64,000 nucleotides of DNA, from positions 1-64,000 of the forward strand of contig JBFMDX010000005.1 in the NCBI GenBank assembly GCA_040753795.1. The letters run 5' to 3'. A program made the translations under genes and the position numbers. Below the pieces are notes generated by a model. That model was not told where the DNA came from and searched no databases. It worked only from the letters and a program-made list of their open reading frames with translations. Within the stretch, counting starts at the first letter, position 1. Every line of letters starts with the position of its first letter. The stretch is from Thermodesulfobacteriota bacterium (GTDB lineage Bacteria; Desulfobacterota; Desulfobacteria; Desulfobacterales; Desulfosudaceae). This document shows, in pieces, positions 6,566 to 64,000 of the stretch.

Positions 6566-9500
6566 TTATGGCTGCTTAGGTTGTTCTGAAGGTTTCTGCC
6601 CGATCTTTCCCATGGTCCATTCCAGGGTCAGGCGGGCGACCAGATAATCTCTTTTGCCCCGGGCCAGGCTGCTCTGGGCATGGAGAAGATTGAGGGCGGC
6701 ATCGTCAACGTCCAGGCGCGTCATGACGCCGTACTTATAGCCCTGCTCGGCCATGGCCAGCATCCGCTCCGCCTGGGTCACGGTCTCACCCAGCGCCATC
6801 ACGATCTCGCCGGCATCTCTGACGGCGTTGACCGCCTGCCTCACCTGCAGCACCAGCGTGTCATAAATATTGCGGATATCCAGCTCCAGGCTCTTGGCTT
6901 CGCTGACCGCCTGGGCCGTCAGGCCTTTGGTCCGGCCGCCGTCAAACAGCGGCCAGGTCAGATACATGCCGAGTGACCAGGCGTCGCCTTCCCCGTTGAA
7001 GCTGTCGTCATACTGCTCCATGGTCAGATCGCGGTAACCGTAACTGGATTTGAAATCGAGCCGCGGCTTGTTCAGGCTGTTGGCGATGATCACCTTCTCC
7101 TTGGTCATCAGCAGGTTGTGCTGCAGATACGCGACTTCCGGGCGGTTGGCCAGCGCCGTTTCCATGACCTTGTCAACGGAAGGGCATTCGGCGATGGCAA
7201 CATCCAGCGTGCCGGAGGCGTCGGGTTTCTCGTCCTGGAGCGCCAGCAGGAACCGGAACCGTTCTCTGACCAGGGCCAGCGCGTTATCGGTCCGGATCGC
7301 CTCGGGCCGGGCGTTTTCCAGCGCCACCCGGGAAGACAGCACATCGTAATCCGTGGCGGTACCGGCGGCGTATTTATGCCGGGCCTCATCCAGATGCCGC
7401 TGTTTCTGGCTGATGTTCTGCAGGGCCAGGTCATGCATGTCGCCGGCCAGGAGGATGTCGTAAAAAGCGACGCTGACGTCCTTGATCGCCCCCTGCTCGG
7501 CCATGATCGTCTGCGCATCCGCCGCCCCCATCATCTCTTTGGCGCCGCGGATGGCGGCCGCGACCTGGCCCCAGGTGAAGATGACCTGGGAGAGCCGGAG
7601 CTCGGCCACGTTGAAATCGCTGTATTCCGGAACGTCAAACAGCCCCATGCCCTGGGCCGCCCGGCTTTCATCCTTTTCCCTGGAAACCGCCGAAACGGCG
7701 GTGATCTGGGGGAAGGCCGCGGCCCGCTGCTCCAGGTAATAACCATGGACGCGGTTTTCCGATTCCCTGGCCTTGAGAATGTCCTTGTTGTTCTCGAAGG
7801 TCAGTTTCAGTGCCTCGTCCAGGGTGAGCCGCCGGGTGGGGACAAACTCCTCGCTCATGCCCGGCCGGGGCCAGAGCAGTAGGGCCAGCAGCAGGGGGAC
7901 GACGGCGGACTTCGCCCGGAGGCGTTTGAGCCGGTTGATGACATCCTCCAGCAGGGTGTAGAAGACCGGCACCACCAGCAGGGTCAGCAGGGTGGAGGTG
8001 ATCAGGCCGCCGATGACGGCCCGGCCCATGGGCGCCCGCATTTCGGACCCGGCCCCCAGGGCCAGGGAAAGCGGCAGCATGCCGAAGATCATGGCCAGGG
8101 TCGTCATCAGGATGGGCCGCAGACGGGTGCGCCCGGCCTGGATCAGGGCCTCTTCCCGGGGCAGTCCCTGGGCCCGGAGAACGTTGGCGTAATCCACCAG
8201 CAGGATGGCGTTCTTGGTCACCAGGCCCATCAACAGGATGAGGCCGATCAGGGACATGATGTTGAGGGTGTCCCCGGCCAGGCGCAGCATGCCCACCATG
8301 CCGACGATGGAAAGGGGCAGGGAGAGCATGATGGAAAAGGGATGGACAAACGACTCGAACTGGGCGGCCAGGATCAGATAAACAAAGACGATGGCCAGTA
8401 TCAGGGATTCGGCCATGTAGCCGAAGGACTCGGCCATGTCCTCGCTTTCTCCGTAGTAGAACACGCGATAGCCGGCCGGCATGTCCCTGGTCGCTTCGGC
8501 TACGATCGGCTTGACCTGCTTGATGGCCGAGCCCAGCGGCAGCCGGTCGAGGTTGGTCGATACCAGGGCTTCGCGCATCAGGCCGTAACGGCTGACTTCC
8601 GACGGGGTGACGCCCATGGTGTAGGAAACGACGTTGCTTAACGGGATGAGGTTGGTCCGGCCGGCGGGATCATGCACGGCCATGAGCAGATTGTTCAGCT
8701 GGGCCGGGTTCTCCCGCATCTCCAGCGGCAGCCGCACGCGGACATCGACCGCGTCGCCGTCCTCGTCCTCGAAGGTGGTGATGACCGAGCCGTTGACCAG
8801 GGTGTTCAGGGTGCGGGCGATGGCGGCCGTGCTGAGGCCCGCGTCCGTCGCCCTGGGACGGTCCACCATCAGGCGGTATTCGGGAATGTCCTGCTCCTGG
8901 GCCAGTTCCACGTCCACAATGCCCGGGATGGTCGCCACTCCCGCCTTGATGCGGGCGGCATACTTTTTCAACACCTCCAGGTCATCGCCCCGAACGCTGA
9001 TGAGCAGCGGTTTGCGCGTGTCCATGCGGCCGCAGTCCTCGAGGGAGGGGATGACCCCGGCCACCTGCTGCAGCTCACGGCGGATTTCGGCCATGAGGGT
9101 GAACTGGTCCTGGCGGCGTTTTTTCTTATCCACCAGCCGGACATACATGGCGGCGTCGCGCGCCGTTCCCCAGTCGCCGGCCCCGATGGTGGTATAGGTG
9201 CTCTCCACCTCGGGATGACGCTCCAGCACCGACATGACCGCCTGGACGCGGTTTCTGGTTTCATCGAGGGAGGCGTTGGGGGCCGATTTGAATTTGAGCA
9301 GAAATTCATTCTGATCGTAGATGGGGATGAAGTTCTGTTCCAGGGTGGTCATCAGGAACAATCCGCCGACGAACGCCAGAAAGGCGAGCATCACCACCGC
9401 GGCGCGGTGCTTGAGCGCCCACCTGACGAGCCGGCGGTAGAAATCCGCCAGTCGATCAAAGGCGCGGTTGAAACGGTCCAGCCAGCGGGTGAGGAACCCC

Positions 9501-55294: not shown

Positions 55295-57073
55295 TCAGTT
55301 AGCATCCTGGGCATCGGGATTTCCGGACTCTTGCGGCGCCTGAAGACGATACCACTCCCGGTAATTCCCGGCGATCCGCATCAGCGTCTGGTGATCCCCC
55401 TGCTCCAGCACCCGGCCCTGCTCCATAACAATAATTCTATCGGCGTGGCGAATCGAAGCCAGACGATGGGATACCAGAATGGTGGTTTTCCTCTGCTGTT
55501 TACGTTCAGCGGCGATTTGCCGCAAGATGCGCTTTTCCGTCGGCGCATCCACCCAGGAAAGGGCTTCATCCATCATTAATATGTCCGCCTTTCTGATCAG
55601 TGCCCGGGCCAGGGCAACGCGCTGCTTTTCCCCGCCGGACATTTTTCCACCCCGTTCCCCGATAAGCGTGCGGTAGGCTTCCGGGAGCCGGGAAATGAAA
55701 TCATGGGCGCCCGCCAGAACCCCGGCTTCAACTATCCTGCCCTCCCCGGCCGCAGGATAACCATAGGCAATGGCCTCGGCCGGGGTGGCCTGGAATATTC
55801 CCGGATCCTGAGGGACGCATCCGAACAAAGTCTTAAGCGCCGTCAGATCCAGATGTCTCAAATCGTGTCCATCCATCAAAACAGCGCCCCGGGTCGGGTC
55901 ATGAAGCCGGATGAGAAGTTTCAGCAGGGTTGATTTGCCGCATCCGCTGGGGCCGGCAATGGCAACGGTCTCTCCTTTGGCGATGGTCAGGCAGATATCG
56001 TTCAATACCGGGGTTTCCGTATCGGGATATCGGAAACAGACTTGCCGAAGTTCAATTTGGCGTTCCAGTGAAGAGAGGATCAGGCCATCCGGCGGGGACG
56101 CGACCGCCGCCTTGCTGTTCAAAAAACCGAATATTTCATTGGCGCTGACAAGCCCCGTCAGCATCGAAAGATACCACGAGCCGAGATTTGATATGCTGCC
56201 ATAAAGGTAATAAGCGGAAGCGATAAAAATGGTCAGACCGCCGACGCTTAACTTGCCCGATGCCACCTGATGCGTCCCCAGGATGACCAGCACGACAACG
56301 CCCGCGACCTTGATCAACTGGGTTACCGGCGACAGCAGAGACATGAACTTATAGGTGTCAAGGGATACGGCCCTCAATTTTTCGTTCATCTTTTTGAATC
56401 GTTCTTTTTCCCTTTCCCCGGCGGCGAACATGGAGATAATTTCCAGATGAGACAGGGTCTGTTCCGCCATGGTATACAATTCCGACCGGACCCGGTTGGA
56501 TTGCCCGGCATTACGGGCGACCATTTTTCTGAAATATCGAAAGAATATCAGGCAGGGGACCAGCAGCAGCAGAACCAGACCGGCCAGAGGTGCGTGCACG
56601 GAAAAGAGGACGATAATCAACGCCGGTATCCTGACCGCTTCTGTCACCAGACTCCCGGAGGTAGACGTAATCATCTGCAGCATGACCTGGGAATGATAAA
56701 ACAGGATCGTCATCAAATCACCGACGGTAAACCGGTTCTGGATGGCGTCGGAAAGCTCGTGGATCTTGGCGTAAATCAGATTCTGAACGCGGTTGCTCAT
56801 TCCGACTTCGATATAATGAAACAACCAGCCGCTGGCATAAACAACAGCGGATCGCACCATGAGCAGCCCCGCGGCCGCAAAAGCATACCATTGCAGTTCC
56901 GGCAGGTGATCGGCGGCAAAACCGCTGTTGATGATTTTCTTAAACAAAAACAGAAAGCCCAGATCAGCCGGCACGCTGACCAGATTAAGCATGCAGGTCA
57001 GCGCCAGCAGGCCGGCATAAGGACGGCCGAATCTCATGGTGGCGATGAAAGTTTTCACCATACTGGCGTTCAT
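55295..57073 (-). CDS. ABC exporter (TMD-NBD fusion), putative peptide exporter
   Basis: The gene encodes 592 residues. Six membrane helices occupy about 20-310, followed by one nucleotide-binding domain with Walker A (GPSGCGKSTL), Q-loop (VPQDPGIF), signature (MSGGEKQR), Walker B (ILMMDEALS) and the H-loop (LVSHRLAS). It would work as a homodimer in the inner membrane. There is no N-terminal C39 peptidase domain, so it cannot itself remove a leader. GGGAGG precedes the ATG. Its start overlaps the nucleotidyltransferase stop by ATGA, tying it to the radical SAM peptide cluster, whose product it likely exports. Confidence 0.88.
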   Translation of the reverse strand: MNASMVKTFIATMRFGRPYAGLLALTCMLNLVSVPADLGFLFLFKKIINSGFAADHLPELQWYAFAAAGLLMVRSAVVYASGWLFHYIEVGMSNRVQNLIYAKIHELSDAIQNRFTVGDLMTILFYHSQVMLQMITSTSGSLVTEAVRIPALIIVLFSVHAPLAGLVLLLLVPCLIFFRYFRKMVARNAGQSNRVRSELYTMAEQTLSHLEIISMFAAGEREKERFKKMNEKLRAVSLDTYKFMSLLSPVTQLIKVAGVVVLVILGTHQVASGKLSVGGLTIFIASAYYLYGSISNLGSWYLSMLTGLVSANEIFGFLNSKAAVASPPDGLILSSLERQIELRQVCFRYPDTETPVLNDICLTIAKGETVAIAGPSGCGKSTLLKLLIRLHDPTRGAVLMDGHDLRHLDLTALKTLFGCVPQDPGIFQATPAEAIAYGYPAAGEGRIVEAGVLAGAHDFISRLPEAYRTLIGERGGKMSGGEKQRVALARALIRKADILMMDEALSWVDAPTEKRILRQIAAERKQQRKTTILVSHRLASIRHADRIIVMEQGRVLEQGDHQTLMRIAGNYREWYRLQAPQESGNPDAQDAN

Positions 57074-58254
57074 CTCTGCCGGCCTCCCGGAACCATGGAT
57101 GCCAGCCCCTGAAAAAGTTTTATCGCCAACCGCATGTGGCGGTTAGGATAATACAGCCAGTAGCACCCCATCGGTTTGCCGGGATACAGTTGTTTCATCA
57201 CCTGCCGGGAAGGGAAGAAGGTGTCCCGCAGGTAAGCCATCAGGTCGCGGGGAGACTTCATCATCAACAGATAATACAATTCACCTTCATTCGGCAGGCG
57301 CAGTCCGGCTCTTGAGACAAACCGGGAAAAAGCCGCGGCCCGGCGGGAAATTTCCAGCTCGCCAATCGGGTCCGGATTCAACCGCCGGGGCCATGATTCA
57401 GCGCATTTAAAAAGCAAAAAAAGCGGCAGGGACGCGCCGGCTTCTCCGGCATCGGCCGCCAGTCGGCGGGGAGAAGACGACAACTCCGGAAACCGGTCGA
57501 AAAGTAGAAACATATCAACGATCCAGATATCTTTTGAAAAACCGTGTTTCATGGCGTTGGCGGCCAGGCACAGCAGGGCGTCGAAGGGAGAAGGCATGAC
57601 CAGGTGACTATAACCCGGAAAGGCGGCGGCCCGGGACAGCAACGTCCCGGTGTTCAACGCCAGCGCTTTCCGGCGGGCGGGGATCCGGTCCGAATGCGTT
57701 ATATCGCCATGCAGGTCGATAACCATCGGTCCCCGATGCCATGTCAGGGGATAATCCGGCCGCCGGGAAAAACCTATTTGATTTAAAACGGGAATCAATG
57801 CCTGCCAGTGTATTTCCGGCACCAGCAAATCAATGTCATCCATGGGACGGAGCCCCATGCCTCCGTAAACCATTGCCGATATGGCCGCGCCCTTCCAGAC
57901 CAGGCAGGGAATACCGGTTTGCTGGAGAGCATCGTCCAGTTCCCGCAGTGTTTTTTGGATCTGCAAATTCCGAAGCAAGGTGCTGAGATAGCTTTCCCGT
58001 AATAAAGACGACAGCGGTTTCCGCGATACGGGGGGGAGGCCGTCATCGGTTACGGCTTCCGTCATGAGGCGCAGGTCCGGGTGCCGCGGGTCCAGTTTCA
58101 GCAGTCGCCGCCATAGCAGCGGCGCCAGTCCATGACGGCAGGCGTAATGGACAAGTTCGTCCGTCAGGGGCATTGTTCCCGGCGGCTCGTCGGTATTATC
58201 CGAATCGAGCAATGCCGTCAGGCACAGCCATCGCAGGTATCGAATTTTGTCCAT
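57070..58254 (-). CDS. Nucleotidyltransferase-family protein (NTP_transf_5-like)
   Basis: The gene encodes 394 residues from the ATG at 58254; the frame is open upstream but overlaps the radical SAM gene, and GGAAGAG lies five bases before this ATG. The polymerase-beta-type active site is visible: VWKGAAISAMVYGGMGLRPMDDIDLLV as two linked motifs with Asp-x-Asp, and a third Asp in VIDLHGDI. The rest is helical. Proteins of this kind recur in peptide-modification loci with PqqD and HprK-like genes, but no reaction is established. It starts two bases after the radical SAM stop. Confidence 0.78.
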   Translation of the reverse strand: MDKIRYLRWLCLTALLDSDNTDEPPGTMPLTDELVHYACRHGLAPLLWRRLLKLDPRHPDLRLMTEAVTDDGLPPVSRKPLSSLLRESYLSTLLRNLQIQKTLRELDDALQQTGIPCLVWKGAAISAMVYGGMGLRPMDDIDLLVPEIHWQALIPVLNQIGFSRRPDYPLTWHRGPMVIDLHGDITHSDRIPARRKALALNTGTLLSRAAAFPGYSHLVMPSPFDALLCLAANAMKHGFSKDIWIVDMFLLFDRFPELSSSPRRLAADAGEAGASLPLFLLFKCAESWPRRLNPDPIGELEISRRAAAFSRFVSRAGLRLPNEGELYYLLMMKSPRDLMAYLRDTFFPSRQVMKQLYPGKPMGCYWLYYPNRHMRLAIKLFQGLASMVPGGRQR

Positions 58255-58256
58255 TC

Positions 58257-59360
58257 TTACTCTTCCAGAGGCAGAGCCCCGCCCATTGCCAGGTACCGTC
58301 TCAGGCAGGCGTCCGGGGCGGGATGGTTCACCTGACCAGTCATGCTGTAGGCAAGGCCGGCACAGTTGCCGGTACAATAAGGGATGTAAAGGCAGTCCGA
58401 ACAGAACGGGAAAGAAGACAGTGGCATGTTATTCCGGCTCCTCAGTTCATTGAGCAGCGGGCTGTGGCGCCAGACATCCGGCAGCGCATCGTGATTGATG
58501 CGTCCCAGTTCCATATGGGCCAGCATGGTGCAGGGAACGATCATCCCGTCGGACCGCACCGCTATCTTATTATGATAGCAACCGCATCCGGTTAATCTTC
58601 CCCGGCCGGGCATGGGCGGCCGGTTATCCGCCCGGGCCTTTTCCATTTCGTTCCAGTATGTGGCTTCGGCCAGCGGACCCGCTGAAGAGGTTATCCGGTC
58701 ACTATACTGATTCTTCAGTCGCCACAATGTCCGCATGGCCTTGCCGCGTTCGTCAACGGTCAGCAGGATATCATCGGCGTTGAGCCGGCATGTCCCCAGA
58801 TAGGCCGCTGAGTTAACGCTGAAACCGGTCAGGTTCAGATCATTGAGGAGAAACGAGGCCATGTCCTCCAGCACATCAACGTTCAATTTCTGGACCGTTA
58901 CCCGGGTAGTGACAGTAACGCCATGCCGCTGCAATATGCGGATTCCCCTGACGGCCTCGACAAAGCTGCCCTGCCCCCGGCAGCTGTCGTGTATGGCTGG
59001 CCCGTTGCCATCCAGAGACACCTGAATGCCGTCACAGCGCCCGGTACCGGCAATCAAGGCGGCCAGCGTGTCGTCGATCAGCGTGCCGTTGGTGAGAATG
59101 GAAAACCGCATCCGGCAGCGGACAACCCTTTGGATCAGGTCGGCAAAATCGTCCCTGAGAAACGGTTCACCCCCCTGGAAGGTGACATGCAGGACCGACA
59201 GGCGGCCGAGTTCCTCGAAAAAATTCAGCCATTCCGTTGTTTCAAGATCCGAATATACCACCGCGTCATTGCCGAAATAATAACAATAACGGCAGGACAG
59301 ATTGCAGCGGGAGGTGATTTCAGCATCAACACTCACCGGTGCGCGCAGGCGGGGTGTCAT
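58257..59360 (-). CDS. SPASM-domain radical SAM peptide-modifying enzyme 1
   Basis: The gene encodes 367 residues from the ATG at 59360, with GAGGA seven bases upstream, 10 bases after the peptidase stop. The 4Fe-4S cluster that binds SAM uses Cys19, Cys23 and Cys26 (SRCNLSCRYC). HVTFQGGEPFLRDD and IQVSLDGNG are core strands. The SPASM region carries many Cys residues (GCGCYHNKIAV, VPCTML, FCSDCLYIPYCTGNCAGL, DACLRR) for auxiliary clusters. Enzymes of this type make thioether or carbon cross-links, or epimerise residues, in ribosomal peptides. The probable substrate is the Cys-repeat peptide encoded at 60108-60380. Confidence 0.88.
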   Translation of the reverse strand: MTPRLRAPVSVDAEITSRCNLSCRYCYYFGNDAVVYSDLETTEWLNFFEELGRLSVLHVTFQGGEPFLRDDFADLIQRVVRCRMRFSILTNGTLIDDTLAALIAGTGRCDGIQVSLDGNGPAIHDSCRGQGSFVEAVRGIRILQRHGVTVTTRVTVQKLNVDVLEDMASFLLNDLNLTGFSVNSAAYLGTCRLNADDILLTVDERGKAMRTLWRLKNQYSDRITSSAGPLAEATYWNEMEKARADNRPPMPGRGRLTGCGCYHNKIAVRSDGMIVPCTMLAHMELGRINHDALPDVWRHSPLLNELRSRNNMPLSSFPFCSDCLYIPYCTGNCAGLAYSMTGQVNHPAPDACLRRYLAMGGALPLEE

Positions 59361-59370
59361 GGGGCCATCC

Positions 59371-60108
59371 TCACGCGGCGTGGATCCGGCAGAGGCGACT
59401 ATCGATCGGACAGGCTGTCGACTCATCTTCCCGGTTGGCGCCGGCTGTCAGCCCGGGATAACGACGGCGGAAGTGATCAATCAGGATTTCCGGAGATAAA
59501 ATCAGACTGAAAACGGATATGCCGCCAGCATGGACGATTTTGCCGTTTACCAGACGAATTTCCGCGATCGGTTTCTCGGACAAAACCAGCCAGGCCTTGC
59601 GGGAATCTGGTTTGGCGTTAAAAACATAGCAACGGGATCGCGCCAGCAGTAACCGCCCGATTCTGTCAACCGGGAAAACGGCTCTGGTTAAAGCCATCAG
59701 AACTGCTTTGATAAAACGCCGCAGGTCCATGATATTCAGGTTCAGGCGGGATAAAACCGCCTGCAGGCCAGAGCGACCAACGATGCGCATCTCCTCCTTA
59801 CGGCCGGCCCGTTGACTGGCGCAGACCCTGCCCCGATAGTTGGCGGGTGTCAAATAAAACGCGTCCGGCCGGACGGCATTGTCCCCTTTTAAGAGGCCGT
59901 AACAAACGCCTCCCTGATAACGCCAGCCGATAAGACGATGAACGACGGTACACGGCGGATTGTCCGACTCCAGAAGAACCACATCGCCGATACCCAGAGA
60001 CTCGAACGGTGCTGGTCTTACCCGGATAAAATCCCCGGCTTTCAAAAAGGGGGACATGCTGGTCCCGGCAACAATCCAGGTCATATCTTTGGGGTCCGGA
60101 TAGGTCAT
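59371..60108 (-). CDS. S24/S26-like Ser-Lys peptidase, candidate leader peptidase
   Basis: The gene encodes 245 residues. The ATG at 60108 shares one base with the precursor stop (TGATG), so translation is coupled. The Ser-Lys dyad is Ser17 in AGTSMSPFLKAGD and Lys74 in LLKGDNAVRPD, with VVHRLIG between, as in LexA/signal-peptidase folds. Residues about 105-245 are an extra domain with a helical, basic part (RFIKAVLMALTRAVFP) and a C-terminal alpha/beta stretch with no known match. No N-terminal anchor is seen. It may remove the leader of the adjacent peptide (inference). Confidence 0.8.
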   Translation of the reverse strand: MTYPDPKDMTWIVAGTSMSPFLKAGDFIRVRPAPFESLGIGDVVLLESDNPPCTVVHRLIGWRYQGGVCYGLLKGDNAVRPDAFYLTPANYRGRVCASQRAGRKEEMRIVGRSGLQAVLSRLNLNIMDLRRFIKAVLMALTRAVFPVDRIGRLLLARSRCYVFNAKPDSRKAWLVLSEKPIAEIRLVNGKIVHAGGISVFSLILSPEILIDHFRRRYPGLTAGANREDESTACPIDSRLCRIHAA

Positions 60109-60380
60109 CAAGCGCGCGCCCCGCTGCCAGGACCGCAGGGCGAATTCCCGTTTCCCGGGCCGACTGTGGCACTATTGCCGGCCGAACAGGCATTGGGATC
60201 AGTCGGGGTACCTGAAGCCGAACTCCCGGTACTGCATGATCCGGAGCCTCCGCCGGCATTGTTGCCCAGCGGACTGCAATAGCTGACGCCCAGGGCCTGC
60301 TGATAAGCCGTCTGGATATGAATCAATTGCGGGGATTCATATTCCCGCGGCCAGTCCATCTGTCCTTTTTTGATTGTCAT
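60108..60380 (-). CDS. Candidate RiPP precursor peptide with four Cys-Gly-Ala repeats
   Basis: The gene encodes 90 residues. Its strong site GGAGG, six bases before the ATG, lies inside the end of the HprK-like gene (44-base overlap). Residues 1-34 form a polar leader (DWPREYESPQL is the likely recognition part). The rest is Gly/Ser/Asn/Pro-rich and built from four units that each start with Cys: C35SPLGNNA, C49STGSSA, C65SAGNSA, C82GPGSGA, spaced 14, 16 and 17 residues. This matches Cys-rich small proteins encoded beside radical SAM genes in deltaproteobacteria. The Cys residues are the expected modification sites. It has no signal peptide. The mature product is unknown. Confidence 0.8.
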   Translation of the reverse strand: MTIKKGQMDWPREYESPQLIHIQTAYQQALGVSYCSPLGNNAGGGSGSCSTGSSASGTPTDPNACSAGNSATVGPGNGNSPCGPGSGARA

Positions 60381-61431
60381 GCTTCACCTCCATTTGAGGC
60401 TGTTTTCCCATCATTTGAAAAAAATCATCGCCTTTGCGCCACTGCAGCCTGGCGACCGGGCATTGGCTGATCAATGCCCGCCAGAAATCGAACACGGAGA
60501 CCGCGCTTTCCGGGTCCATAAAGGTAAAAAAATGGGTGGACGCTTTCAGCAGCCGGTCGATAGCTTCCGTCCGGGAGACAGTCCCCAGTCGCGTTTCCCC
60601 GCTTTTTTCCAGAAGGTACAACTCGGTCAGGGGGACCGGTTGCTGATGCCAGGCCCATTGATGCTTACCCCCGCCCGGCCGCTGGCGGAAAGGCGTTGGA
60701 TATATCGTATAGCCATCCTGCCGACGACGGATCACCAGGCCGTCATCGGCCAGTACCGTACCCGGTGGCGACTGCATTGAAAGCGAGGTCTTGCCGTTGC
60801 CGGAAGAAGCCGCAAACGCATAACCACCTTCCCGGTATTTCAATCCGACCGCATGCACGACCACTCCTTCGAGGGTACTCAGTGAAAGGGAAAGAAGGCA
60901 CATGACCGCATTCATGATGGTGATGGTTACCCGGATCAGCCATAATTTCTCTTCATCCGGTTCTTCCGCTATCGGCGGCCTCTCCATTAATAATATCCAA
61001 TTATTGCGGCTTAAGTCAAACAGCAGGAATCCGGTCTCCAGAGGGACGCATCCGGGGCGATCCGGTTGTTGTAAAAACAATTCAAGCCACGGCGTAATGG
61101 CCGGTTGCGTCAATACCGTCTTCAAATCGGTCAGCCTTTGGCCCTCCCAAAGACGCCGTTGAAGCGCTGTCGCTCTTCGCAGGATCAGATCGATCCAGGC
61201 ATCGGCAGGAGCCGCACCGGCAGAGGATTCGGTAAAGCGGTCGGGAGCAGAACCGGAGAGAATAATGTTCAAGGTCAGATCAGCCTTACCCTCTCCTGTT
61301 AGACCGAAATCGGTCATTCGCCGACGGAATATCGTCAGCAGCGCATCCAGTCCGGGTTCGCCCCTGATTTCCAGGGTTACGTCGCCGATGCTGCAGCAGA
61401 ACAACTGTTTATCAACTTTATTAAGAGCCAT
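60337..61431 (-). CDS. HprK-like P-loop protein
   Basis: The gene encodes 364 residues. The P-loop is SSGNGKTS at 209-216, followed by LADDGLVIRR, which resembles the HPr kinase/phosphorylase C-terminal domain (DD and strand order). The first 200 residues are specific to this type and unlike HprK's N-terminal domain. HprK-like proteins accompany PqqD and nucleotidyltransferase genes in lasso-peptide and exosortase-type loci, where they may phosphorylate a peptide or regulator. The start at 61431 has only a weak ribosome site. It overlaps the precursor gene by 44 bases. Confidence 0.78.
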   Translation of the reverse strand: MALNKVDKQLFCCSIGDVTLEIRGEPGLDALLTIFRRRMTDFGLTGEGKADLTLNIILSGSAPDRFTESSAGAAPADAWIDLILRRATALQRRLWEGQRLTDLKTVLTQPAITPWLELFLQQPDRPGCVPLETGFLLFDLSRNNWILLMERPPIAEEPDEEKLWLIRVTITIMNAVMCLLSLSLSTLEGVVVHAVGLKYREGGYAFAASSGNGKTSLSMQSPPGTVLADDGLVIRRRQDGYTIYPTPFRQRPGGGKHQWAWHQQPVPLTELYLLEKSGETRLGTVSRTEAIDRLLKASTHFFTFMDPESAVSVFDFWRALISQCPVARLQWRKGDDFFQMMGKQPQMEVKHDNQKRTDGLAAGI

Positions 61432-61457: not shown

Positions 61458-62546
61458 CTATTCATTGACCAACCGGCTTTTCGGAAAAAGCCCGGCATTA
61501 TAAGCTTCCTGGCAGATCCAGTAAGGGCCCATGAGATCTCGGGACTGTTCATAAGCCAGAGCTCGGCACTCACCCAGGCAGATCGCCTTGAGGATACATT
61601 GCGCGCATACCCCTTTTAAATGACGGGGGAGGCCCTGTCGCAAGGCCGCTATTAAAGGCGCCCGGTGCCAAAGCTCCGCCAGGGGTTCGTTAAAAATATT
61701 GCCGATGACCAATGAAGCGTCTATATTGCCCACGCCGCAGAAGGACAAATCCCCGTTCGGGAGCAGCCCCAGGATATGATGAATTCTGCATACGGAAAAC
61801 TGACGCTGTCGAATCACCGCCAGGGGACGAAAAGCCAGCGGGAGCGAAAAGGCCACACCGCCGGGAAAATCAGTCATGGCCCGGCTATTCCAGCGATCGG
61901 TCATGGCCAGCAGTTCCGGGACCGTCAGACAGGCGTCTCCGTCCAGATTACTGCCCCGGCCCATCGGCTGGACCGGATTGATTTTCAGGGATTTGGCCCC
62001 GCAATCCCGGGCAAGTTTAATAATTGCCTCCAGGTCGGAAAGATTGCCGCGATGAAGGCAGGTAATGATCTGGACCTGGAGGCCACGTTCGGCCAGCAGC
62101 TTCAGGCCTGATATTGTCCGTTGAAAAGCGCCCCGCACGCCCCGGAAATCGTCATGGATATCCGGCCTTGACCCGTCCAGGCTGACGGAAATCGAAATAT
62201 CCTTCGGGTATTTTAAAAGGTCGGCCATGGCCTCGTCGATCAGGGTAGCGTTGGTTTCCATCGTAATCGAAAGCCTATGATCCGCCGCAGCCTTTAAATA
62301 TTCCGGGAAACCGGGATGAAGCAGCGGTTCACCGCCGGTAAATTTCACCCACCTCATCCCCAGCGATCCGGCCTCATCCAGCAGGCGGGAAAACACGTCC
62401 GGCGTAATCCCCTGCCCCGGTCCGGAGTTATTATCCGCATGCGAGCCTGAATCCGCCCGCTGCCAGCAATGCCGGCATTTTAAATTGCAGGCCCGGGTCA
62501 CATGAAAAATAAGCGTCTCAAGCGCCGGTATGTCAGAGTTGATCAA
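61458..62546 (-). CDS. SPASM-domain radical SAM peptide-modifying enzyme 2
   Basis: The gene encodes 362 residues starting at TTG 62546 with AAGG about eight bases upstream; no internal Met precedes the cluster motif. The SAM cluster is Cys20, Cys24, Cys27 (RACNLKCRHCW). VKFTGGEPLLHPGF and ISVSLDGSRPDIHD are core motifs. The SPASM part reads GDLSFCGVGN, VCAQCILKAICLGECRALAY and YWICQEAY. It differs clearly from enzyme 1, so the two probably do different steps. It lies directly downstream of the PqqD-like gene, the usual partner for leader recognition. Confidence 0.88.
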   Translation of the reverse strand: MINSDIPALETLIFHVTRACNLKCRHCWQRADSGSHADNNSGPGQGITPDVFSRLLDEAGSLGMRWVKFTGGEPLLHPGFPEYLKAAADHRLSITMETNATLIDEAMADLLKYPKDISISVSLDGSRPDIHDDFRGVRGAFQRTISGLKLLAERGLQVQIITCLHRGNLSDLEAIIKLARDCGAKSLKINPVQPMGRGSNLDGDACLTVPELLAMTDRWNSRAMTDFPGGVAFSLPLAFRPLAVIRQRQFSVCRIHHILGLLPNGDLSFCGVGNIDASLVIGNIFNEPLAELWHRAPLIAALRQGLPRHLKGVCAQCILKAICLGECRALAYEQSRDLMGPYWICQEAYNAGLFPKSRLVNE

Positions 62547-62611: not shown

Positions 62612-62911
62612 TTATTGGCTCGACTCGTCAGCCCGGGACCCGGCGTATCCCATATTGATCAGTTCCTGAAGAAACGATTGGACCTGCTGCTGAATATTCG
62701 AAGATGGAATATCAGGGTAGCGATCACTGATCATCGATATAATCGCCCCGGGTGAATGAGAACCGTCCAGAAGTTTCCAGATCACAGCGCCCATAAGGTT
62801 GAGGCATTTTAATTCACCGCTATCCGGATCGAAAAGAAACGAGCCCTCGTCTTCCTCCCGGAACACAATATCAGGATTAGCCAGCAACGGCCTGTCGTCA
62901 TTGATCGCCAT
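62612..62911 (-). CDS. PqqD-like peptide chaperone
   Basis: The gene encodes 99 residues from the ATG at 62911; longer forms overlap the O-antigen-ligase-like gene. The pattern RPLLANPDIVFREEDEG.FLFDPDSGELKCLNLMGAVIWKLLDGSHSPGAIISMISDRYP with a final helix matches PqqD, which binds the leader peptide and presents it to a radical SAM enzyme. GAGAG lies upstream. It starts five bases after the preceding gene, so it is in the same transcript. Confidence 0.85.
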   Translation of the reverse strand: MAINDDRPLLANPDIVFREEDEGSFLFDPDSGELKCLNLMGAVIWKLLDGSHSPGAIISMISDRYPDIPSSNIQQQVQSFLQELINMGYAGSRADESSQ

Positions 62912-62916
62912 ATTAT

Positions 62917-64000
62917 TTACTCTCTTTCCCACCCGAAGCCAGCCGCCGTTTTCAGCGTCGGCGCCAGGAATACAATGCCGGTAAAAAACCAGAATGGTTC
63001 CATGATCCGGACAATGATAAAGGTATTGGCCCCCAGCGCGTGAACCAGCAGTCCGGCGGTGCCGGCAATATAGCCGGCACACAATCCCCGGTAAAAAGAA
63101 CTGTCCGTCAATCGAAGACTATTGAATGCCATTTTGAATATCGAATAAATCAGAAAAATAAAAAAAGACAATCCCACCACCCCGGATTCAACCAGCACGC
63201 GGGGGAACTGTGAATCGATAAACCGATGCCCGGTGATGCCGTACCCCAGTATCGGGCGCTTTGTCCAGTCGGCTATCGCCTGTTTGGCGGAAAGAATCCG
63301 GGCGGAAGTCGAAGGGTCCAGCCGTATTTTTCCCAGTGAAACCTGGGCCTCACTCTGGGGAGTCTGTCGAAAGGTATAAGCAACTCTTTGTTTAACCACG
63401 GCCGGCAGAAAAAAAGGACTCATCGCCATCATGACCAGGACAAACGCCAGCAAAAATCCTTTTTTTCTTGTAAAAAGAGAAACGACGATCAGCATGACCG
63501 GCAGGGCCAGATAAGAAACCCTGGATTGGGTGAAAAGAAACGGCGGGATGATCACCGCGGCCAGCAACACCACCATTCTTTTAAGATTGTAATTATCGCT
63601 CAGAAGAAACAGGCCGGCCGTTATGGCCAGCATAAACATCAGGTATCCGCCAAAGGTATTGGGCTCGCCGCTTTCCCCTTCAAAGGGGGCGGTGACCCGG
63701 CCGCCGCCGGGTATCTGGAAAAGACCGACAAGGGCCACAATAAAACAGGTTACCAGCAGAAAATAAACCATTCGCCTGGCCTGGTCATCGGTATGGACAT
63801 AATTGACCACCATGAAAAAAACGATGAAATATTCAAAATATTTTAAAACGAAAAACATGCCTGTTTTGGGGTCGACATTTCCTGCCATGATGCCCAGGCC
63901 CGTCGACAACACACACACGAACAAATAGATGAACAAAGGTTTGTTCAGCGGCGTTTTCAGAAAAAGGCCGATATCTTTGTAAACCGCGTTGCGGGCGAAC
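62917..64000 (-). CDS. O-antigen ligase/polymerase-like membrane protein (5' end cut by window)
   Basis: At least 361 codons are seen, and the frame stays open to the window edge, so the N-terminus is missing. About nine hydrophobic segments are visible. The large loop with PILGYGITGHRFIDSQFPRVLVESGVVGLSFF is the Wzy/WaaL signature region that includes the catalytic-type Arg/His surroundings. Such proteins join or polymerise undecaprenyl-linked glycans at the periplasmic face. It heads the peptide-type cluster, either by chance at the end of an exopolysaccharide locus or because the product is glycosylated or cell-surface bound. Confidence 0.8.
   Translation of the reverse strand, partial: FARNAVYKDIGLFLKTPLNKPLFIYLFVCVLSTGLGIMAGNVDPKTGMFFVLKYFEYFIVFFMVVNYVHTDDQARRMVYFLLVTCFIVALVGLFQIPGGGRVTAPFEGESGEPNTFGGYLMFMLAITAGLFLLSDNYNLKRMVVLLAAVIIPPFLFTQSRVSYLALPVMLIVVSLFTRKKGFLLAFVLVMMAMSPFFLPAVVKQRVAYTFRQTPQSEAQVSLGKIRLDPSTSARILSAKQAIADWTKRPILGYGITGHRFIDSQFPRVLVESGVVGLSFFIFLIYSIFKMAFNSLRLTDSSFYRGLCAGYIAGTAGLLVHALGANTFIIVRIMEPFWFFTGIVFLAPTLKTAAGFGWERE

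Follow-up and report, generated by a model that had tools for sequence, protein, structure and literature searches.

A 90-aa ORF in the window (the whole stretch of DNA analysed here, 64,000 nt) very probably encodes a precursor peptide. It is likely to be a RiPP precursor of the SynChlorMet (Scm) kind with a lasso-type leader; radical enzymes would modify each of its units, and phosphorylation, cleavage and export would probably follow. The precursor gene is arranged in one operon with the genes of its putative tailoring enzymes, the catalytic residues of these enzymes are conserved, precursor and cassette occur together across genomes, and the repeat units of the precursor are conserved.

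The probable precursor and its operon

The sequence-only reading of this region described four variants of a C-x2/3-G-x2-A unit, 14–17 residues apart, behind a leader with an EYESPQL motif. The translation bears this out: the spacings between the four Cys are 14, 16 and 17 residues, and YESPQL runs from Y14 to L19. The leader extends to about Leu30, and the remainder of the peptide is Gly/Ser/Asn-rich and holds all four units. When the residues after the leader motif were shuffled 100,000 times, three fits arose 65 times and four fits, the number observed (4/4 Cys), never arose, a result that overstates the surprise since the unit pattern was chosen after the peptide had been seen. Independent support for the repeat observation is comparative and is given below.

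The operon spans positions 62911 to 55295, entirely on the minus strand, and its genes overlap or are separated by gaps of 65 nt or less (Table 1). Their order is PqqD-like protein, ScmF-like enzyme, HPr-kinase-like protein, precursor, S26-type protease, ScmE, nucleotidyltransferase-like protein and ABC exporter. The precursor ATG sits within the 3′ end of the upstream HPr-kinase-like gene, and its TGA shares one base with the ATG of the S26-type protease gene. The earlier suggestion of a precursor for a processive radical SAM enzyme is partly supported: the peptide is very probably a precursor, and its operon also encodes a PqqD-like protein and two enzymes of the radical SAM/SPASM type, while processive action of either enzyme is hypothetical. 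The kinase, the S26-type peptidase, the nucleotidyltransferase-like protein, the exporter and the NCBI naming of the cassette and of ScmA all go beyond that reading.

Table 1. Features of the precursor gene and the surrounding operon (positions in the window).
Feature	Position	Strand	Basis
PqqD-like peptide-binding protein (ScmD-like)	62612..62911	minus	PF05402 1.2e-12; TIGR04248 69.4 bits (cut-off 100)
Radical SAM/SPASM (ScmF-like)	61458..62546	minus	TIGR04251 293.6 bits, below cut-off 400
HPr-kinase-like protein (ScmC-like)	60337..61431	minus	TIGR04249 23.3 bits, below cut-off 125
RBS GGAGGT, 5 nt upstream of precursor ATG	60386..60391	minus	sequence
Precursor (divergent ScmA-type), 90 aa	60380 (ATG)-60108 (TGA)	minus	ORF + GGAGGT
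Leader motif Y14-E-S-P-Q-L19 (YxxPxL)	60324..60341	minus	translation + relatives
Gly31, predicted first core residue (11 residues between motif and Gly31)	60288..60290	minus	Gly register
Unit 1 CSPLGNNA (C-x3-G-x2-A), Cys35	60255..60278	minus	translation
Unit 2 CSTGSSA (C-x2-G-x2-A), Cys49	60216..60236	minus	translation
Unit 3 CSAGNSA (C-x2-G-x2-A), Cys65	60168..60188	minus	translation
Unit 4 CGPGSGA (C-x2-G-x2-A), Cys82	60117..60137	minus	translation
S26-type (signal-peptidase-like) protease	59371..60108	minus	TIGR02228 50.4 bits, cut-off 51.85
Radical SAM/SPASM ScmE, exact start uncertain	58257..59426	minus	TIGR04250 527.8 bits, above cut-off 400
Nucleotidyltransferase-like protein	57070..58254	minus	PF14907 4.2e-33
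ABC exporter, membrane + ATPase domains	55295..57073	minus	PF00664, PF00005

Catalytic residues were compared in alignments from which short sequences were left out and in which each locus was represented by its best ScmE; one ScmF-like protein (L035, 16369) and one ScmE-like protein (L102) were dropped. ScmE and ScmF each show an invariant CxxxCxxC motif and seven further invariant Cys in 26/26 aligned sequences. His193, Lys214, Asp229 and Asp230 of the HPr-kinase-like protein are invariant in 27/27, and Asp181, Asp183 and Asp288 of the nucleotidyltransferase-like protein in 17/17. The S26-type protease has an invariant Ser18 and His58 (21/21, numbered from the TTG at 60111, with three kinase-S26 fusion proteins from L051–L053 added to the alignment by hand); a Ser/His dyad is the arrangement of archaeal and ER-type S26 enzymes. 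Conservation is far lower among the PqqD-like proteins (38 aligned) than in the other aligned enzymes, and the Pfam matches of the ABC exporter include no peptidase domain. Fusions of kinase and S26 protease (L052) and of S26 protease and nucleotidyltransferase (L036) suggest that these proteins serve one pathway.

The kinase was also examined by profile and structure comparison, using 19 relatives (the residue alignment held 27). The alignment profile matches HPr kinase 1jb1 (6.2e-7). The predicted model (mean pLDDT 79, 19 sequences) resembles PEP carboxykinase folds (Foldseek E 5.7e-7; Z 14.2, rmsd 4.1 over 251 residues), HPr kinase being matched by the sequence profile while its chains are absent among the best 50 structural matches. 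HPr kinase and PEPCK have the same fold. The window's HPr-kinase-like protein combines the two features expected of an HPr kinase or lasso tailoring kinase, as judged from its aligned residues and its predicted structure: the His-Lys-Asp-Asp set, which is the motif stated for lasso kinases (PMC9266682), and an HPrK/PEPCK fold.

Conservation of the repeat unit and leader among relatives

ScmE was found in 21 of 395 genomes of the phylum at E≤1e-80, and 18 of the 21 exceed the NCBI cut-off. A contig scan added one close relative (L002, Omnitrophota); two distant ones (25–27% identity) were left out. Of the phylum's 20 ScmE genomes besides the window's own, 17 have precursor-like ORFs close to ScmE, as does L002. 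The peptides used for comparison comprise 25 sequences from 19 genomes, the window included. Selection relied on the leader pattern, on two or more C-x1-4-G and on visual inspection, which also removed, before alignment, antisense and GC-rich frames and those lying within ScmF. A profile made from the 25 found 13 more, giving a set of 38 that excludes two short frames of L087 (lacking the leader motif or having fewer than two Cys), L095, L101 and L113–L117.

Among the 153 Cys of the 25 precursors, Gly follows at Cys+3 in 126 of 151 cases (shuffle mean 30.9), and Cys+6 is occupied by Ala or Pro in 88 (shuffle mean 28.4), neither count being reached in 2000 shuffles; since selection asked for the leader motif and C-x1-4-G, Gly near Cys is partly built into these figures, exact Gly+3 and Ala/Pro+6 forming no part of it. 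In the full set of 38 (228 Cys), Gly occupies Cys+3 in 87%, and Cys+6 is Ala in 43% and Pro in 19%, together 62%. Ser or Thr is present at Cys+4 or +5 in 128 of the 196 C-x2-G units. The precursors carry 2 to 14 Cys each; their cores are about 10% Cys with a regular period, and gaps between Cys are mostly 10–11 residues (83/128 in the 25). Spacing of 14–17 residues was therefore rejected as a general rule. The window's precursor is an outlier, both in its wide gaps and in having one unit with Gly at +4.

The sequence-only reading had proposed an alignment of homologous small proteins as its check, and named retention of length with loss of the Cys repeats as the outcome that would speak against it. 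That outcome was not seen in the relatives. Cys and Gly are kept, Ala/Pro less strictly, and length and unit number vary; the check is not fully blind, because the first 25 relatives were picked by a pattern requiring Cys and Gly. Between two congeneric genomes the precursors diverge with dN 0.10 and dS 0.88, which speaks for selection on the precursor frame.

Several loci (L036, L040, L045, L046 and L114) hold two or three precursors with differing numbers of units, and in L040 a precursor precedes each of the two kinase genes. Two of the L040 precursors (L040:7345-7701 and 8938-9306) and one from L049 (L049:70-468) have 12–14 Cys, CC pairs and irregular spacing, and perhaps a different ring pattern.

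In the leader, the Tyr and the Pro of YxxP are each found in 37/38 precursors, frequencies that are partly built in since the motif was used in selection, and Leu, Ile, Met or Val is the third residue after Y-x-x-P-x-[LIV] in 38/38. Counting from the end of the motif, positions 10 to 12 include a Gly in 28/38 (shuffle mean 13.6); by this register the core of the window's precursor would begin at Gly31. A-x-A occurs in the linker of only 13/38 (null 6.7), less often than the Gly, and was rejected as a general signal-peptidase site; an S26 cleavage site of this type would accordingly not be general. The combination associated with RiPP-type PqqD recognition, that is, a PqqD-like protein, a conserved leader motif and a precursor in one operon, is present in the window, and the motif points to binding of the leader.

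The 25-peptide profile matches 32 of the 395 phylum genomes at E≤0.001, including all 21 with ScmE, and gives the window's precursor an E of 7e-9. These searches scored the best 12 candidates per genome for the precursor profile and the best 5 for ScmE, so absences are not firm. Since 18 of the 21 ScmE genomes supplied training peptides, the independent cases are G031, G157 and G291, none with its match near ScmE. The match in G031 adjoins a group of kinase, S26, ABC and nucleotidyltransferase genes elsewhere in the genome, that in G157 adjoins PqqD-like and nucleotidyltransferase-like genes, and that in G291 has no cassette gene nearby. Of the other 11 genomes with a match, seven have cassette genes next to the precursor (G072, G116, G260, G051, G023, G013 and G332). 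The genome search found no ScmF in G116 or G260, though kinase and S26 genes adjoin their precursors, and a fragment of ScmF lies at the end of locus L088 (G260). In G087 the precursor match and ScmF are on different contigs. G005 and G078 (79% and 62% complete) have a precursor match with no adjoining cassette gene and no ScmF found; G042, of the same genus, has ScmE. The match in G311 crosses seven stops and was taken as spurious. The precursor profile also matches five of the 237 genomes searched in L002's phylum (E≤1e-5), one of which supplied a training peptide; the cassette lies beside the precursor in G549, G467 and G594, and G492 has an ScmF over the cut-off on another contig.

Detection also held when genomes were left out of training one at a time: the precursor was the first hit among the ORFs of its loci in 19/19 genomes, the congeners G306 and G342 being removed together and tested one by one. 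With the window held out, its own precursor ranked first of 210 ORFs (E 2e-5). A plasmid collection searched at E≤1e-40 gave no match to the ScmE of one relative locus, L034, and viral contigs gave no relative of it. One genome (G368) carries two ScmE cassettes on two contigs (L042, L044), each with its own precursor. The window's own genome encodes two more radical SAM/SPASM-like proteins on contig C20 (L055, 14.7–17.8 kb), about 1 kb apart on one strand and scoring 108 and 101 bits to ScmE; the precursor profile found no match beside them at E≤0.001.

Relation to SynChlorMet and other RiPP systems

The SynChlorMet cassette is defined by the models TIGR04248–TIGR04252, its name presumably being drawn from Syntrophobacter, Chlorobium and Methanocella. 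The window likewise has counterparts of ScmE, ScmF, ScmD and ScmC together with a precursor in one operon. ScmE alone among the window proteins passes its Scm cut-off (527.8 against 400); the ScmF, ScmD and ScmC counterparts score best with their own Scm models, yet below the cut-offs. The ScmA model (TIGR04252) matches 12 of the 25 aligned precursors at E≤1. It does not match the window's precursor at that threshold, and a search of the window's genome at E≤10 gave two other weak places and left the precursor site unmatched. At L034, ScmD, ScmE, ScmF and ScmC are all over their cut-offs and accompany the same kind of precursor, which reaches 28.6 bits to ScmA (cut-off 35). The gene order differs (D-F-C-A-S26-E in the window, D-E-F-A-C-S26 in L034), and the units are more widely spaced in the window than in SynChlorMet-type relatives. 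No Scm model matched the S26 protease, the nucleotidyltransferase-like protein or the exporter. We conclude that the window system is a divergent variant of the named SynChlorMet cassette. Among papers under open licence, none was found on SynChlorMet, on radical SAM together with ScmE, or on its TIGR numbers, nor any joining radical SAM, CXXG and RiPP.

Three described systems share parts of this arrangement. In the ranthipeptide PapA, a SPASM radical enzyme, PapB, likewise acts on tandem Cys motifs, six of the CX3D/E type, and makes a thioether in each (PMC9413430). At Cys+4 the window's units carry N, S, N and S (Gly in the first unit) and so lack C-x3-D/E, and Asp/Glu are outside the six commonest residues at Cys+4 in the 38 precursors. 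There are also two radical enzymes rather than one, and the PapB model, with a cut-off of 340, gives 99.4 bits for the window's ScmE and 95.2 bits for that of L034. A PapA-type ranthipeptide was rejected for lack of an acidic acceptor at Cys+4. Ruminococcin C likewise involves two radical SAM enzymes (RumMC1 and RumMC2) and a Cys-containing precursor (PMC8188230), but it has four bridges, whereas Scm-type precursors repeat one kind of unit up to 14 times. RumMC2 has its own RRE (PMC8188230), while the PqqD-like protein here is encoded separately, and kinase and nucleotidyltransferase-like genes are additional features of the present system.

Leader and kinase resemble those of the paeninodin and pseudomycoidin lasso peptides, which also have a YxxPxL leader, a PqqD-like B1 protein and an HPr-type kinase with His-Lys-Asp-Asp (PMC9266682, PMC10368454), as well as a nucleotidyltransferase-annotated partner, as in the window operon (PMC9266682). 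However, no asparagine-synthetase-like macrolactam synthetase (C) or B2 protease was matched among the eight operon products scanned, and radical SAM enzymes and an S26-type protease stand in their place. The window's product was therefore rejected as a lasso peptide.

Proposed pathway and alternative explanations

In the pathway we propose, the PqqD-like protein would bind the leader through YxxPxL in the manner of lasso-peptide B1 proteins, for which these residues are required for recognition (PMC10368454). ScmE and ScmF would then act on the Cys-x2-G-x2-[A/P] units. We give about even chances to one small thioether ring per unit, from the Cys sulfur to a carbon of the same unit, the candidate acceptors being Ala/Pro at Cys+6 or Gly at Cys+3. 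By analogy with PapB, and with RumMC2, which tolerates Ala as a bridge site when its substrate is altered (PMC8188230), a Cys-to-Ala/Gly thioether in each unit would be chemically reasonable. Ser/Thr, possibly the ones at Cys+4/+5, may be phosphorylated by the kinase, and the resulting phosphate may be further decorated by the nucleotidyltransferase-like protein; this step is tentative, and is modelled on PsmK/PsmN of pseudomycoidin, where a kinase and a nucleotidyltransferase-annotated protein are linked to phosphate and hexose on Ser (PMC9266682). With slightly better than even odds, removal of the leader would fall to the S26-type Ser/His protease, at a site near A-x-A or just ahead of Gly31. 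The main text of a review on leader proteases of RiPPs mentions neither S26 nor signal peptidase (PMC10885120). The ABC protein would export the product. Were all of this to hold, the family might constitute a new RiPP class. Two radical enzymes working together would close a small thioether ring of much the same kind in every Cys-x2-Gly-x2-Ala/Pro unit, giving chains of at most some twelve rings per peptide; Ser/Thr in the units would be phosphorylated (possibly phospho-glycosylated), and an S26-type cut and export would follow. Taken as a whole this is rather unlikely.

The thioether has to be weighed against a less probable though substantial alternative, in which the radical enzymes spare Cys and form a C–C bond, epimerise or dehydrogenate at Gly, Ala or Ser, leaving the Cys free or in disulfides. 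Most loci have two SPASM enzymes side by side, which leaves room for one or both to catalyse a reaction other than ring closure, and Ala/Pro at Cys+6 is a marked feature in its own right. PqqE- and heme-pathway models, whose enzymes form no thioether, are among the better non-Scm scores of both ScmE and ScmF. Against this, Cys with Gly at +3 is the strongest constraint in the units, and the SPASM enzymes PapB (PMC9413430) and RumMC1/2 (PMC8188230), which act on Cys-containing RiPP precursors, form thioethers. Ring formation at Cys remains the preferred reading.

The other explanations depart further from a modified and exported peptide. A secreted peptide whose Cys repeats bind metal or build a solenoid-like structure, merely trimmed or activated by the radical SAM enzymes, would account for the Cys content and regular period of the cores, but is improbable in view of a leader motif of the kind read by PqqD-like proteins and of the RiPP-type genes that adjoin in most loci. 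The predicted model of the L046 precursor (140 residues, 10 sequences) showed no solenoid or other fold (mean pLDDT 41), which is weak evidence. Marginally more improbable is consumption of the precursor in the synthesis of a small cofactor, the fate of PqqA in PQQ formation. PqqD-like and PqqE-like (SPASM) proteins are indeed present, but the 2–14 Cys stand in similar units and not as a single excised residue pair, two or more precursors occur in L036, L040, L045 and L046, and the operon includes an ABC exporter. A chance Gly/Ser-rich ORF with four Cys, to which the low-complexity composition and the failure of the NCBI ScmA model to match the peptide might point, has a negligible probability beside the co-occurrence, the held-out detection and the shuffles. 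A modified, exported RiPP of the SynChlorMet kind is preferred to all of these.

Upstream of the cassette are exopolysaccharide export genes (62917–63936 and beyond the window end, L054:12918-19574), which include an O-antigen ligase, a Wzc-like kinase and a Wza-like exporter with FG-GAP repeats. A neighbouring protein resembles the PEP-CTERM-associated ATPase but stays short of that model's cut-off. Of 44 other stretches examined, five (L034, L043, L046, L086 and L093) contain a relative of one or more of these. As such genes adjoin the cassette in the window and in some relatives, the product could belong to the cell surface or the matrix and not be an antibiotic.

NCBI names the cassette and supplies a precursor model, and the current precursor model misses divergent members such as that of the window. 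What is gained here is a family of 38 putative substrates that share a sharply defined repeat and are tied to a particular set of genes, a kinase and an S26-type protease among them. With its unit, core start and mass changes predicted, this uncharacterised system becomes directly testable.
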